Below are positions 16,844-58,110 of a stretch of DNA of 64,000 bases, piece by piece. The stretch lies in the NCBI GenBank assembly GCA_030386875.1, contig CM059563.1:13782001-13846000 (forward strand), in the 5' to 3' direction. The notes below the pieces were generated by a model. It saw nothing but the letters and a program-made list of their open reading frames with translations, did no database searches and was not told where the DNA came from. The stretch's first letter is position 1; every line of letters starts with the position of its first letter. The DNA comes from Morinoia aosen. Taxonomy: Eukaryota > Arthropoda > Malacostraca > Amphipoda > Talitridae. Position numbers and translations under genes: made by a program.

Positions 16844-16933
16844 GCCCTGAACGGCTTCCTCGTAATCCTGGACTGCGAGGGCGAGGTGTTCTTCGCCACA
16901 CACAACATCGAGACCTACCTCGGCTTCCATCAG
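16844..16933 (+). CDS. ss: Aryl hydrocarbon receptor / spineless, PAS-A exon (first part)
   Basis: A 90-bp phase-0 exon encoding 30 residues, ALNGFLVILDC then EGEVFFATHNIETYLGFHQ. This is the start of the PAS-A domain of AhR; the family has LQALNGF...YLGFxQ here, and the EGEVFFATH wording is of the arthropod spineless type. It is preceded by a pyrimidine tract (CCGTCCGTCTCTCCCCAG, AG at 16842-16843) and followed by gtaccg at 16934. AhR/Spineless is a bHLH-PAS transcription factor that dimerises with ARNT/Tango in the nucleus; in insects it specifies distal antenna and leg and some photoreceptor fates. PAS-A contributes to dimerisation. Codons are GC-rich in third positions, against an AT-rich background. 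The previous exon, expected to encode bHLH, is not in the window. Confidence 0.95.
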
Positions 16934-17760
16934 GTACCGTCAAATTTGTTCCAGCTATTTTGCGAGTGAAAATCAGTGGTATACTTCGAACTCCACGGTG
17001 CGAATGTAATTTGAAGACCGCCTCGGCTTCTGGTACCGTCAGACATGTTCCGGCTATTTTGATCAACATTCGTGCAAAATTGAGTAATGTATTTCGAATT
17101 CCATGACATGGATGTAATTTGAAAACCGTCTTGGCTTTCATTGGGTACCGTTATCTTTGTTTCAGCAGTTTCACGAGTAAAAATCAAGATTGTATTTCGA
17201 ACTCCAGAGAGCGAATGTTATTTGAAAACCGCCTCGGCTTCCATCAGGTACCGTGAGATTTGTTCCATCGATTTCGATGAATATTCGAGTGAAAATGAGT
17301 AGTGCATTTTGACCTCCAAGGTGTGAATGTAACTTGAAAACCGCCTCGGTTTTTATCAGGTACCGTGATGCTCGTTCCATCTATTACAATCAATAATTAT
17401 GGAATGAAAATCAGTAGTGTATTTGGAACTCCATGGCATGGATGTAACCTGAAGACTACCTATGCCTTCATCCGGTACAGTGATGTTTGTTTGGTCCATT
17501 TTAATCAACATTCGAGTGAAAATGAGTAGTGTATTTCTGACTCCAAGGTATGGATGTCACCGTGAGACCGTCTCGATTGAGGAAAAGTATGGTGATGTTG
17601 TATGAAGCTTCTTTACCTGATGAAATTTACGAATTAAGGGAGTGGTATACTGTAGAAGGAATGGGTAGCAAATAAACTTCAAGACTCACGTCGGCTTTTA
17701 TCAGGTACAGACTTCCGTTCCTAAGCTATTTTTAACCATGATTGCTCATTAAACTAGTAG
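16934..17760. repeat. Degenerate tandem repeat derived from the 5' splice junction
   Basis: The intron begins with a repeat of about 99-117 bp. Each unit contains a copy of the exon's last ~25 nt and the donor: GACCnnCTCGGCTTCCATCAG then gtaccgtnanntttgttcc. GGTAC donor-like sites lie at 17033, 17145, 17248, 17360, 17475 and 17705, with a decayed one near 17588, following the real donor at 16934. The copy at 17248 keeps CTCGGCTTCCATCAG|gtaccg exactly; others have lost bases. Units also share CCANNATTTTGATCAACATTCG and GAAAATCAGTAGTGTATTTCGAACTCCA-like blocks (shortened here). The exon is conserved in the protein family, so it is the likely source. Confidence 0.88.
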
Positions 17761-20700
17761 TATATTCATTACGGGAATATATATAGATAACATGAGAAAC
17801 TATCTTGGTTTTTACACGAATAATCCTTACTAATTAGCCTATTTTTACTGTCATCAAGGACGCGATAAAACATGTATCTCACTAGACTCTTCAGCGTACT
17901 AGCAATGCCTCCTATACCTCCAGGCCTGCTCCTAGACGTGGCAACATCGTAATGACGTCACACTACTGGTCATATCAAACCAGTGCTTCCGGTATGGTAT
18001 GGGAGGCATTGGTATTAGTGTGGGAAAAAAACTATTTTGGCTCGCCTCTGACATAATCTTTCTGCTCGTATCTCAATCAATAATATTTTCACGAATAACT
18101 GGTACTATGCCCCCAAGTTCTGGGAGTGAATGCAACCGCAAAATTGACCTCGCTCTTTTGTTAATTTAATGACTTTGTCTTAATTTAATGACTGCTTCGT
18201 CCGCCTAAAAGGTCGAATAACTAGGAGAAAACAAAGAATTAATTTTAGGATCTTCACTCGAATTTTTTCTTGCTCTGTTTTCTCTTTTGTTTGGTTGTCT
18301 CTGCTTGTTATCACGATGTAAAATGAAATCGTGCCACAGAACGCAGCGCGTGTCCGATAAAACTGCCACCAGGACGTGCCCCTCTACGTGCTGGTGACTA
18401 GTGAGCGCCAGTGGCTAGTAAGCGTCTGATACACTAGTGACTAGTGAGCGCTTGATACGCTAGTGAGCGTCCGACGCATTAGTAACCAATGAGCGCATAA
18501 AATGAAAGGGAAACAGTGAGCGCTCGTCTCGTAACTTCGTAACTACACAGCCAGGTGTGTGTGAGTGTGTGTGTGTGTGAGTGTATACTGTATGTGCTGC
18601 ACTCCACATAACTATCGACAATAACAAGTCGCCCCCATGCGCTGAATATTGTGAAAAATCTCACGACAATAACGACATTGTGCCTACTGCGCGTCAACTT
18701 CATCAGGCATGTATCGAAGTGGTTTGTGTTTTTCTTGATCTGTGATGCTCGTGCCGCTGCGTGAAAGTTTGCTAATGCCTTAAATGCAGCAAATTATTAT
18801 TGTTATCTGTGTTTCGATATGCACGAAATGTTTTCCACTTCCAAATGAATTTTTTTAATCGAATATTGTAAACCAAGTAAGTCCCCTCTAATGATTCGCT
18901 ATCAAGTTTACATTGCATAGTTTTTTCAATATATTTTTTGAATGCAAGTGCATATGTTCAATTTAAGTTAAAACGATAGGTATCGCTTTTATTTGACAAA
19001 TTTTCCATGCATCCTATTTTTAATTCTGATCGATGCATGCTATTACAAAAATGTTTGCATATTCTTGAAGAAAATGGGAATTATAGCAGGTACGCACGCA
19101 GCGCTGCTAAACATTGAAACATTTAAAACTAGCCTCCAATTTCCATTTTTGGAGACGGCTAAGTGATGGGGCCGCACGAGCGAGATTTTATAACTACGAT
19201 ATTTTGCTAAATTTATTTTTTCGAAACGAGCGTTTTTTCATCATATAGGGTTACTCGCGTTTTGTTAAAAATGTTATGCTTGATCTGAACACTGGTTTCA
19301 AGATTAAACTATTTAATCAATTTTAGCAAGTATTTGAGAGCAAAAAATCGTTTGTTTCGTAACGCGGACGTGAAATCCATGGCAAATTGGTTCCCGTGCT
19401 TCGACATCTCTTGATCTTCAAACAATGAGAGCGGCAGTAACTTTTCACAAACCAAAAATTATAAGAGCATAATATTGCAGATTCTTCGTTGCCCACATGA
19501 AGATCGTGTGCAAAGGCAAATTTTCATCTCGGATAGCACGTTTTTCTAATCAACAATGAATGTGAAAGAATTGAATTCCTACGTCAGTTTTTCATTAATT
19601 TAACAGATCTCTCATATTCTCATCAGGCCTTTCTTATACAACTTTCATGGCCTTAAAAATCAAGATATTCAAGCCGCTGCCCGTAAAGGCAGCCTGTGTT
19701 CCTGCACCCCGCTTCTCTGTGCGGCTGCTCACACCGCAACCTCTGGCGACCCTGTTCCAATTTGCAGCCCTGCCAACGCTACTAACTACGAGGATGCATT
19801 GGAGTCTCTCGAAGCATCCCTAAAGTATTTCCTCTTCACATTTGGCTCGGATCCTGACACGACTCCTCACAGCTCGGCGTGCTGGAGCACCGCCAGAGAT
19901 GAGAGCGGCCCCGCCGTCCGTAAAAGCTGCGCTCAGGAATGCGCGGCACGCCGCAATAGATGTCTACGTCTCCGGGTGACGTACTCATGACGGTTATGCG
20001 AGCGTGCGGTCGTTAACGTGACAGTTACGTCGTTCTTGGTCGCGCTTTACGCTAAATTTGGTTGTGCATCGGAGACTTCATCGTCTGACGAGCGATTATT
20101 TAAAGAAATTTACGAGCGTGGCAGGGTCGGGAGAGGCGGCGGTATGCTCACAGGACCCACCCTTATTGCAACTCGGCCGATTTTTCTGCGCCGGCAAGTG
20201 AATGAAAAATCATTTCTTGGTTCGACCTCATGTTTTTTTCCTGACGGACACGCGTGGTAAATTGACCGGAACAATTCTTATACGTTCCTACAATTTTCTG
20301 CCGAGTTTCCTCGTGACATGTTCTTCACTTTCCTGTGATAATTAGGCAGTTAGATTTGTGGTGCACATTCTTTTTTGGGGCCATTGGTGATGAAATGCGA
20401 CCACTCAAACCAGTACACAATTATTGGAGAGTAACGCTAAGAAAACTTCCTAAGAGCAGTTTTGTCATAAATGCAGTCCTATGTGAACTATCATTCGAGT
20501 CATTTTTTTCTGTTTTTGATTTTTGCGCTGGAAAATCAAAAGACGGAAAGGCTAGCAAAACACCCAGAATTGACTGGGAGTTTTCAAGTGTCCTATTATT
20601 TATATATGTATATAATATTATCGAGGTGTCATTTAATCGATCGTATTATTCTCTTTTTATACGTAGGTCAGCTAGTCGTTTTAAAATTATTTTCAATTAT

Positions 20701-55606: not shown

Positions 55607-55885
55607 GGTTTATTGTTTCATTGTCATTGCGCAGTGGTCGGCAGCAGTGATCTGTCAGGTTTAAATTGAATTAACTATTATTTCCTCGGGATTTAAAGTT
55701 CAAGGGTCCTTTTCGTGTTGTAGAGGAACGCCGGATATGCTTTTGTCTCTTACAAATACACCAAAATTAATTGAAACCATCTCAAATGAACGTTATTCAG
55801 CTGTTCTAGATCGAACAAATCATCAACTCTAAAACTTTGCATAAAACAAAACAGTAAACTAGTTCAGACGAGTGAAATTTTTCTG
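55607..55885. other. Intron sequence, no gene
   Basis: Short unique stretch between two arrays; nothing recognised. Confidence 0.4.
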
Positions 55886-57575
55886 ATGGAGAGCAATGTA
55901 GTCTGCTGCTTATAAGCCTCACTAGCCGCGAATTACAGTATAAGATAGGTTCAAATAAGCCTTATATCACTGTTTCAGAGTGAAACATAGCCCTGTTAAG
56001 CCTTACATGTAAAACACCACAGTATGACAGGTTTAAATAAACGTTACTTTCGTGTTGCCCAGCGATGTACTTTACTGCTTTTAAGTTTCGCAACCGCCAA
56101 AATATAGAATAAAACAGATTCAAGTTCGGTGTTCAGAGCGATGTAGCTTACAGCTTTTCAGTCTCACATCAAAATCCATTCAAAGAATTTCAAATAAGTG
56201 TGATTTTGGTGTCCAAGACGAAATATTCTACTGTTGTCCCACGTTGCATCAAAACGAAGAATAAAAGATTCAAATGCGCTGTATTTTGATGTTACAATGC
56301 GACATAGTTTACCGTTCAGCCTCACGTCGCTTCAAAATACAGAATAAAATATTCAGATGCGCATTATTTTGATGTTTCAGAGCGACATAGCTTACATCTG
56401 AACGAGTCAGTTGTTTGCTTAAATCGCAACTTGATTACAAATTTAAAAACGATGAAAATTCCAAGGAACTTATGTAATCATATTTCATTTGAAAACGTTT
56501 GGACATAGTTAACTGTTCAGCCTCACGTTGGATCCAAACCCAGAATACAATACTCAAATACGGGTTATTTTGGTGTTGCAGAGCGAAATAGTCTGCTATT
56601 CAGCCTCGCGTTGGATCAAAACCCAGAATACAATACTCAAATACAGGTTATTTCGGTGTTGCAGAGCGAAATAGTCTGCTATTCAGCCTCGCGTTGGATC
56701 CAAACACAGAATACAATACTCAAATACGGGTTATTTCGGTGTTGCAGAGCGAAATAGTCTGCTATTCAGCCTCACGTTGGATCCAAACACAGAATACAAT
56801 ACTCAATTACGGGTTATTTCGGTGTTGCAGAGTGAAATAGTCTGCTATTCAGCCTCACGTTGGATCCAAACACAGAATACAATACTCAAATACGGGTTAT
56901 TTCGGTGTTGCAGAGTGAAATAGTCTGCTATTCAGCCTCGCGTTGGATCCAAACCCAGAATACAATACTCAAATACGGGTTATTTTGGTGTTGCAGAGCG
57001 AAATAGTCTGCTATTCAGCCTCACGTTGGATCCAAACACAGAATACAATACTCAAATACGGGTTATTTCGGTGTTGCAGAGCGAAATAGTCTGCTATTCA
57101 GCCTCACGTTGGATCCAAACACAGAATACAATACTCAAATACGGGTTATTTCGGTGTTGCAGAGCGAAATAGTCTGCTATTCAGCCTCACGTTGGATCCA
57201 AACACAGAATACAATACTCAAATACGGGTTATTTCGGTGTTGCAGAGCGAAATAGTCTGCTATTCAGCCTCACGTTGGATCCAAACACAGAATACAATAC
57301 TCAAATACGGGTTATTTCGGTGTTGCAGAGTGAAATAGTCTGCTATTCAGCCTCGCGTTGGATCCAAACCGAATACAATACTCAAATACGGGTTATTTCG
57401 GTGTTGCAGAGCGAAATAGTCTGCTATTCAGCCTCACGTTGGATCCAAACACAGAATACAATACTCAAATACGGGTTATTTCGGTGTTGCAGAGCGAAAT
57501 AGTCTGCTATTCAGCCTCACGTTGGATCCAAACCCAGAATACAATACTCAAATACGGGTCATTTCGGTGTTTCAG
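55886..57575. repeat. ~83-bp tandem repeat derived from the 3' splice junction
   Basis: From 56517 the array is regular, 83-bp units: CAGCCTCACGTTGGATCCAA, ACACAGAATACAATACTCAA, ATACGGGTTATTTCGGTGTT, GCAGAGCGAAATAGTCTGCT, ATT. Each has GTGTTGCAG|AGCGAAATAGT, a near copy of the real border GTGTTTCAG|AGCGACATCGT. Decoy exon starts lie at 56582, 56665, 56748, 56831, 56914, 56997, 57080, 57163, 57246, 57329, 57410 and 57493; the true exon start 57576 is exactly 83 bases further. One unit is 81 bp. Older units with ~76-87-bp spacing reach back to 55892, plus one longer gap (e.g. GTTTCAG|AGCGACATAG at 56381). Using the nearest decoy would shift the reading frame into an early stop. Confidence 0.93.
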
Positions 57576-57782
57576 AGCGACATCGTGCACCAGAGCGTGT
57601 ACGAGCTGGTGCACTCAGAGGACAGAGAGGAGCTGCAGCGCCAGCTCATGTGGAACTCGCAGCTGCCGCCTGACCAGGCCAGCGCCACGCTGCAGGAGGT
57701 GCTGCACGGCGACCAGCAGGCCCTAGAGAGGAACTTCACCGTCAGGTTCCGCTGCCTCCTCGATAACACCTCCGGCTTCTTG
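57576..57782 (+). CDS. ss: Aryl hydrocarbon receptor / spineless, PAS-A exon (second part)
   Basis: A 207-bp phase-0 exon of 69 residues continuing PAS-A directly from the exon at 16844-16933: [34 protein letters not shown], a variable stretch, then [17 protein letters not shown]. The [17 protein letters not shown] and [13 protein letters not shown] blocks are hallmarks of AhR/Spineless; the central segment is the family's variable loop. Acceptor GGTGTTTCAG ends at 57575; donor gtgagt starts at 57783. The intron joining the two exons is 40,642 bp. Codon use is GC-rich, as in the other exon, and there are no stops or frameshifts. The next exon (rest of PAS-A, then PAS-B) is not in the window. 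Confidence 0.97.
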
Positions 57783-58110
57783 GTGAGTTGGCTGCTTCTT
57801 TGACCCTGGCATTAGTGTTTAAACTGAAGTGTTAGACCGTGTTTCTGGGCTTATTTTGTGCCCGTGGACTTAGTGTTTACACAGAAGCTTAGAGCGTGTT
57901 CCTGGACTTATTTTTTGCCGGTAGATTTAGGATTTAAACCTAAGTATTTCGTATTTATTTTAAGGCTTAGAGCATGTTCTTTGACTTATTTTGTACCCGT
58001 AGGCTTAGTATTTAAATCCAAGTATTTTGTATTTATTTTAAGGCTTAAAGCGTGTTCCTGGACTTATTTGTGCCCGTGGGGTTGCGAATAAAACGCAAGG
58101 CTTAAATTGG
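57783..58110. repeat. ~56-79-bp tandem repeat directly after the 5' splice site
   Basis: Five diverged units with shared words GCGTGTTCCTGGACTTATTT, TGTGCCCGTGG and TTAGTATTTAAA. The array starts within about 10 bases of the donor. GGCTTATTTTGTG (57848) resembles the exon-donor border GGCTTCTTG|gtg, and similar positions recur near 57914, 57993 and 58070. This may be a third junction-derived array, but similarity is weaker than at the other two junctions. Confidence 0.7.

Follow-up and report, generated by a model that had tools for sequence, protein, structure and literature searches.

Junction-derived tandem arrays with decoy splice sites at both ends of a long AhR/spineless intron in the amphipod Morinoia aosen

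How does a tandem array of splice-site copies come to end exactly on an exon, and how could the true site still be chosen among them? The question is raised by the AhR/spineless gene of Morinoia aosen, in a stretch of 64,000 nucleotides (assembly GCA_030386875.1, contig CM059563.1, positions 13,782,001 to 13,846,000 of the forward strand), here called the window, in which an array of about 83-bp units runs up to the acceptor of an AhR exon. I consider it very probable that this array is a minisatellite of the type named mirage in amphioxus, that it derives from a duplicated splice junction, and that it is one case of a general habit of this genome and not a device specific to AhR. That a real splice junction was duplicated again and again into its intron is well supported from the sequence: the homology on the exon side is in register, a copy at the intron's other end repeats 16 exonic bases exactly, and junction-spanning copies occur in other genes. 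An earlier proposal of repeated inward copying of a splice junction, made in a first-pass annotation from the letters alone, is largely right.

The acceptor array and its exon

Tandem Repeats Finder (TRF) reports an 83-bp array at 56516-57580, with 12.9 copies and a 97% match. The features at this end of the intron are, in window coordinates:

55834 to 56390, + strand: older, decayed units of the 3' mirage, with mapped acceptor positions 55892, 55979, 56061, 56137, 56218, 56298 and 56381
56516 to 57509, + strand: young 3' mirage, twelve units of 83 bp (one of 81), with decoy acceptors GTGTTGCAG followed after the cut by AGYGAAATAGT
57510 to 57586, + strand: border unit with the true acceptor and the first 11 exon bases, GTGTTTCAG at 57567-57575
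57576 to 57782, + strand: AhR exon, PAS-A region, 69 codons, with donor GTGAGT at 57783

The twelve young decoy acceptors stand at 56582, 56665, 56748, 56831, 56914, 56997, 57080, 57163, 57246, 57329, 57410 and 57493, ahead of the real site at 57576; the only 81-bp step is that from 57329 to 57410. Both the positions and the claim that every unit holds the acceptor together with the start of the exon are borne out, with about 11 nt on the exon side. The repeats therefore span the exon-intron boundary, as in mirages, the acceptor units extending 11 nt into the exon. Compared with the first 11 bases of the exon, nine of the twelve young units agree at 9 and the other three at 8. In the surrounding 144 kb, only 14 of 141,683 positions reach 9 out of 11.

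Further upstream, seven older units reach back to 55892 in steps of 76-87 bp. Their local scores of 40-92 lie above those of 300 shuffles (median 26, maximum 39); 55892 and 56137 are borderline, since each scores 40. A further candidate unit at 55810 (score 36) was excluded from the count, and an acceptorless remnant at 56499, read by eye, is in register with the array. The AG at the mapped acceptor is lost in 56061 and 56298. It had also been claimed that the oldest units match the exon best and that the copies have drifted from it. This holds for 56298 and 56381, each matching 9 of 11 exon bases, and fails for the remaining five, which match 7, 5, 7, 7 and 2.

The exon peptide runs from SDIVHQ to SGFL, and its matches in PDB are aryl hydrocarbon receptors (best E 8.8e-14); with the Pfam PAS profile alone the exon stays under the cut-off (E 0.076). 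The + strand of the window carries two AhR/spineless exons, and three more lie downstream of it. In the genome searched (1.99 Gb in 29 contigs), the AhR exons show 70-86% identity to a Drosophila fragment versus 39-57% to a human one. The same genome yields at least 115 matches to PF00379, a cuticle-domain family that marks arthropods; these and the AhR identities identify the host as an arthropod and speak against amphioxus, which the literature on such arrays had first suggested. The insect odorant receptor family PF02949 gave no match, a negative that carries little weight because the search contained no positive control. About 30 nt past the donor of the exon, another array with 57/78-bp units starts (window positions 57812-58077), which contains no exon sequence.

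Could this be an ordinary intronic minisatellite, the last unit of which abuts the exon or was co-opted as its acceptor, with a chance resemblance to the exon start? Minisatellites are abundant in this genome (TRF lists 55 rows for the window, some of them overlapping), the exon-side match is just 11 nt long, and the first bases after an AG are partly generic. However, the match stands in a fixed register and at a quality found at about one in 10,000 local positions, the exon end predates the array because the exon peptide resembles vertebrate AhR, and the donor end of the same intron holds a copy with 16 exact exonic bases. I therefore regard a chance resemblance as very unlikely.

The donor end and a second copy of the gene

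The donor at the other end of the intron shows a similar arrangement:

16844 to 16933, + strand: upstream AhR exon, ALNGFLVILDCEGEVFFATHNIETYLGFHQ, identified by tblastn with an AhR probe and by sequence
16934 to 57575, + strand: AhR intron of 40,642 nt, phase 0, bounded by the flanking exons, with junction-derived arrays at both ends
17015 to 17767, + strand: 5' mirage, six copies of the donor junction, mostly 102-115 bp apart, with GT at 17033, 17145, 17248, 17360, 17475 and 17705

The upstream exon ends with the peptide YLGFHQ at 16933, followed by the donor GTACCG at 16934. The six donor copies reach local scores of 95, 77, 73, 73, 66 and 59 versus a maximum of 46 in 200 shuffles, and all six have retained the GT. 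The copy with its GT at 17248 is an exact repeat of the last 16 exon bases plus GTACCGT. Among nine AhR junctions tested, junction-spanning copies were found at two, the two ends of this 40.6-kb intron, and the same two ends emerged from a second test of ten AhR junctions; in both tests, several of the later AhR junctions were placed one base off. A later AhR exon near 102244-102386 (L017 near 8386; G000:C8 near 13884386) ends in CAT, followed by the donor GTGAGT and then by a run of short GTGAGTGGG units. The match reaches about 3 nt into the exon, under the cut-off of 5, and a third mirage with about 3 exon bases is possible there.

On this contig, about 1.4 Mb further downstream, a region aligns to the AhR locus with gaps over about 115 kb; among the pieces listed, most long ones are 93-98% identical and some 85-90%. 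This copy B contains three of the AhR exons, and the peptide of the exon after the array is identical to that of copy A, the copy in the window. The older acceptor units are the same set in both, whereas copy B has 6 young decoys versus 12 in copy A. Donor copies number 8 in B versus 6 in A, counted at one fixed score of 28 without shuffles, so that the weakest copies are doubtful; GT was read in four of the eight of B. Other arrays in the intron differ as well, for instance one with a 34-bp unit, which has 34.8 versus 123.9 copies. A tree was built from 20 units of A and 7 of B, 27 in all; in it the border units A57576 and B15256170, which differ by one base, pair with a support of 97/97 and stand apart from the inner units. 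The border unit thus lies outside the homogenisation of the array. Within the array the supports are mostly weak (13 of 16 inner branches were drawn open and the bootstrap had not settled).

Copies A and B are probably two haplotypes that were both kept in the assembly. Among the matches of a kinesin search, too, there are pairs of genes with equal scores that lie about 0.1-4 Mb from each other on one contig, which suggests haplotype duplicates retained in the assembly. Such retention, and the fact that long tandem arrays assemble poorly, could make one suspect that the array or its copy number is an artefact of assembly. However, scattered substitutions and a single 2-bp deletion distinguish the units, the two assembled copies have almost identical older decayed units, and the border units are one base apart, which makes an artefact extremely improbable.

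Strength of the decoys and the choice of the true site

To score the acceptors I used a small matrix of 30 sites from this genome, picked by eye and all ending in CAG, which includes two sites, L052 and L054, that are themselves flanked by junction copies (see below). Against a leave-one-out median of 7.2 for those 30 sites, the twelve young decoys reach 7.3-7.9 and the true site has 4.9. The lower score of the true site is mainly due to a T in place of G at position -4, and CAG is kept in all twelve young units. Of the seven older units, two exceed the true site, with 6.5 and 5.2, and the other five fall short of it. The score of the last decoy is equalled or exceeded by 3.1% of 1,920 other intronic AGs, and that of the true site by 10%. 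The earlier statement that the real site must be recognised amid near-identical competitors is thereby strengthened; as all twelve young decoys outscore the true site, local strength does not explain the choice.

Reading from the decoy positions meets a premature stop before the end of the exon in 18 of 18 cases in copy A and in 12 of 12 in copy B; for copy A, 56298, without an AG, was left out of this check and 56061, which also lacks it there, was included. The last decoy, 57493, adds 83 nt and runs into a stop at codon 78, a frame shift and stop already seen in the first annotation. On the donor side, reading on from the exon towards any of the six copies of A hits a stop after 11 intron codons. 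As this stop lies ahead of the first copy, a one-base offset in four of the six positions used has no effect on the result.

The most likely course of events is as follows. About 71 intron bases and about 11 exon bases across the 3' junction were tandemly duplicated, and slippage or unequal exchange probably made the array expand and contract afterwards. When a duplication spans a 3' junction, the downstream copy remains on the intact exon, and therefore new copies fall inside the intron; the 5' junction is the mirror case, in which the upstream copy stays intact. Such duplications would cost little if the outermost site is the one used. The inner copies would homogenise and later decay, the border unit being held by selection on both coding and splicing. 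The outermost site would most likely be kept by its exon context, that is, by an exon lying beside a good donor at the right distance, as exon definition leads one to expect, and mis-spliced products with a premature stop would probably be removed by nonsense-mediated decay. Exon definition and the decay of aberrant RNA are established processes, and they stand behind the site choice and the removal of errors proposed here.

Known mirages and junction copies in other genes

In amphioxus, mirages are tandem repeats over exon-intron borders, reported for the globin genes BflGb6 and BflGb9, with Adh3 cited (PMC3087553), and noted also for PGBD5 and troponin C (PMC3902484). In the first of these papers, RT-PCR (reverse transcription and PCR) suggested that regular splicing is undisturbed, the copy number varies between haplotypes, and the borders of the clusters escape homogenisation. 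The AhR arrays belong to this known kind. They resemble the amphioxus cases described in PMC3087553 in anatomy, with many repeats that carry splice signals, and in the exclusion of border units from homogenisation; the 12 versus 6 young decoys would also agree with the length variation between alleles if the two copies are haplotypes and not paralogues. What is new is the arthropod host, the two-ended case, the strength of the decoys, and an apparent commonness in a small sample. The differences from amphioxus are that both ends of one intron are affected here, with 12 young and 7 older acceptor units, that decoy and true acceptors were scored with one matrix from the same genome, that the rate of junction copies was set against random intron points, and that the AhR mirages are described from genome sequence, the amphioxus ones with RT-PCR on splicing as well. 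A mirage in an arthropod was not found among the papers listed by searches of the open-licence literature, as judged by titles and the starts of abstracts. The mirages found in print concern single amphioxus genes, and here several junctions of a large arthropod genome are involved.

Two further systems come close. Human IFI6 holds a minisatellite that supplies several donors, of which two downstream units are reported as used, giving three mRNA species (PMC4526556; Turri et al. 1995). The AhR 5' mirage is likewise a minisatellite with units as candidate donor sites, but reading on to any donor copy of A ends in a stop, and the AhR units are putative donors only. Intron gain by tandem duplication, in which splice signals are copied (PMC4974935, PMC2891723), was also proposed in PMC3087553. 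In contrast to such gain, the AhR intron pre-exists and the copies lie inside it. Mirages at several junctions of this genome also provide young examples on which to examine whether new introns or exons can arise from duplications of this sort.

In order to see whether AhR is alone, I surveyed 20 myosin-head and 20 kinesin exons (80 ends), chosen from match lists before their sequence was seen. By eye, 26 acceptors and 22 donors were assigned, and the 32 of 80 ends at which no clear AG or GT lay close to the profile match were left out, a decision taken when the first self-comparisons were already known. Junction-spanning copies were present at 7 of the 48 assigned junctions, namely at three of 26 acceptors (L052, L054, L066) and four of 22 donors (L043, L051, L054, L066), and five of the seven have two or more such copies; the L066 acceptor and the L051 donor have one each. 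L054 shows copies on both sides of one exon. The clearest case is L043, a donor mirage with a 42-bp unit in 11.6 copies that includes 19 exon bases and GTTAGT. This myosin-exon donor lies on the reverse strand at 962-1436; as its unit is a multiple of three, splicing at a decoy could lengthen the protein by 14 residues per unit, in frame, for as long as no stop intervenes. L046 was weak in the first self-comparison and failed the test for spanning copies, and L061-L063, which have repeats upstream, were set aside because a clear acceptor was missing.

Of 160 random points in the AhR introns, 25 gave a positive result on the upstream side and 22 on the downstream side; the random points were run with 60 shuffles and a margin of +2, the junctions with 200 shuffles. 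Against this background the 3/26 acceptors and 4/22 donors show no excess, and a special targeting of junctions was rejected. A rate of junction copies close to background fits a general process of tandem duplication that is tolerated by splicing. It also bears on the idea that the decoys serve AhR, as competitors of the acceptor or as poison extensions through which the output of productive splicing at the 40-kb intron is reduced or tuned. The premature stops that follow from reading the decoys, the higher scores of the twelve young ones and the involvement of both ends of one intron could all be expected of such a function. However, copies A and B differ two-fold in the number of decoys, and unrelated genes have spanning copies too, about as often as random intron points do. 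I hold such a function to be very unlikely, and favour the duplicated junction as one instance of a genome-wide habit.

Several observations weigh against this preference. In the young 3' units the exon-side homology covers just about 11 nt; five of the seven older ones match poorly (2-7 of 11), and at the L052 and L054 acceptors the match is only 5-6 nt in most copies. The survey is small, with two families in one genome, its junctions were assigned by eye, and 32 of 80 ends were excluded. Moreover, copies A and B may be paralogues rather than haplotypes.

It is a serious but still tentative possibility that junctions in this arthropod lineage are duplicated into their introns about as often as other intron sequence, and that a sizeable share of its genes carry decoys that are locally as strong as their true sites or stronger. 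If decoys are that common, it must be exon context, and not local strength, that decides the choice of site, and this arthropod genome would be a natural competition experiment for splice-site choice. Decoys that outscore the true acceptor, as in AhR, offer a ready-made test of how the spliceosome settles on one among many near-equal sites.

Among the myosin-head matches, six consecutive ones at G000:C1:35644596-35648320 correspond to nearly the same stretch of the profile (about 376-452), possibly a cluster of alternative exons.
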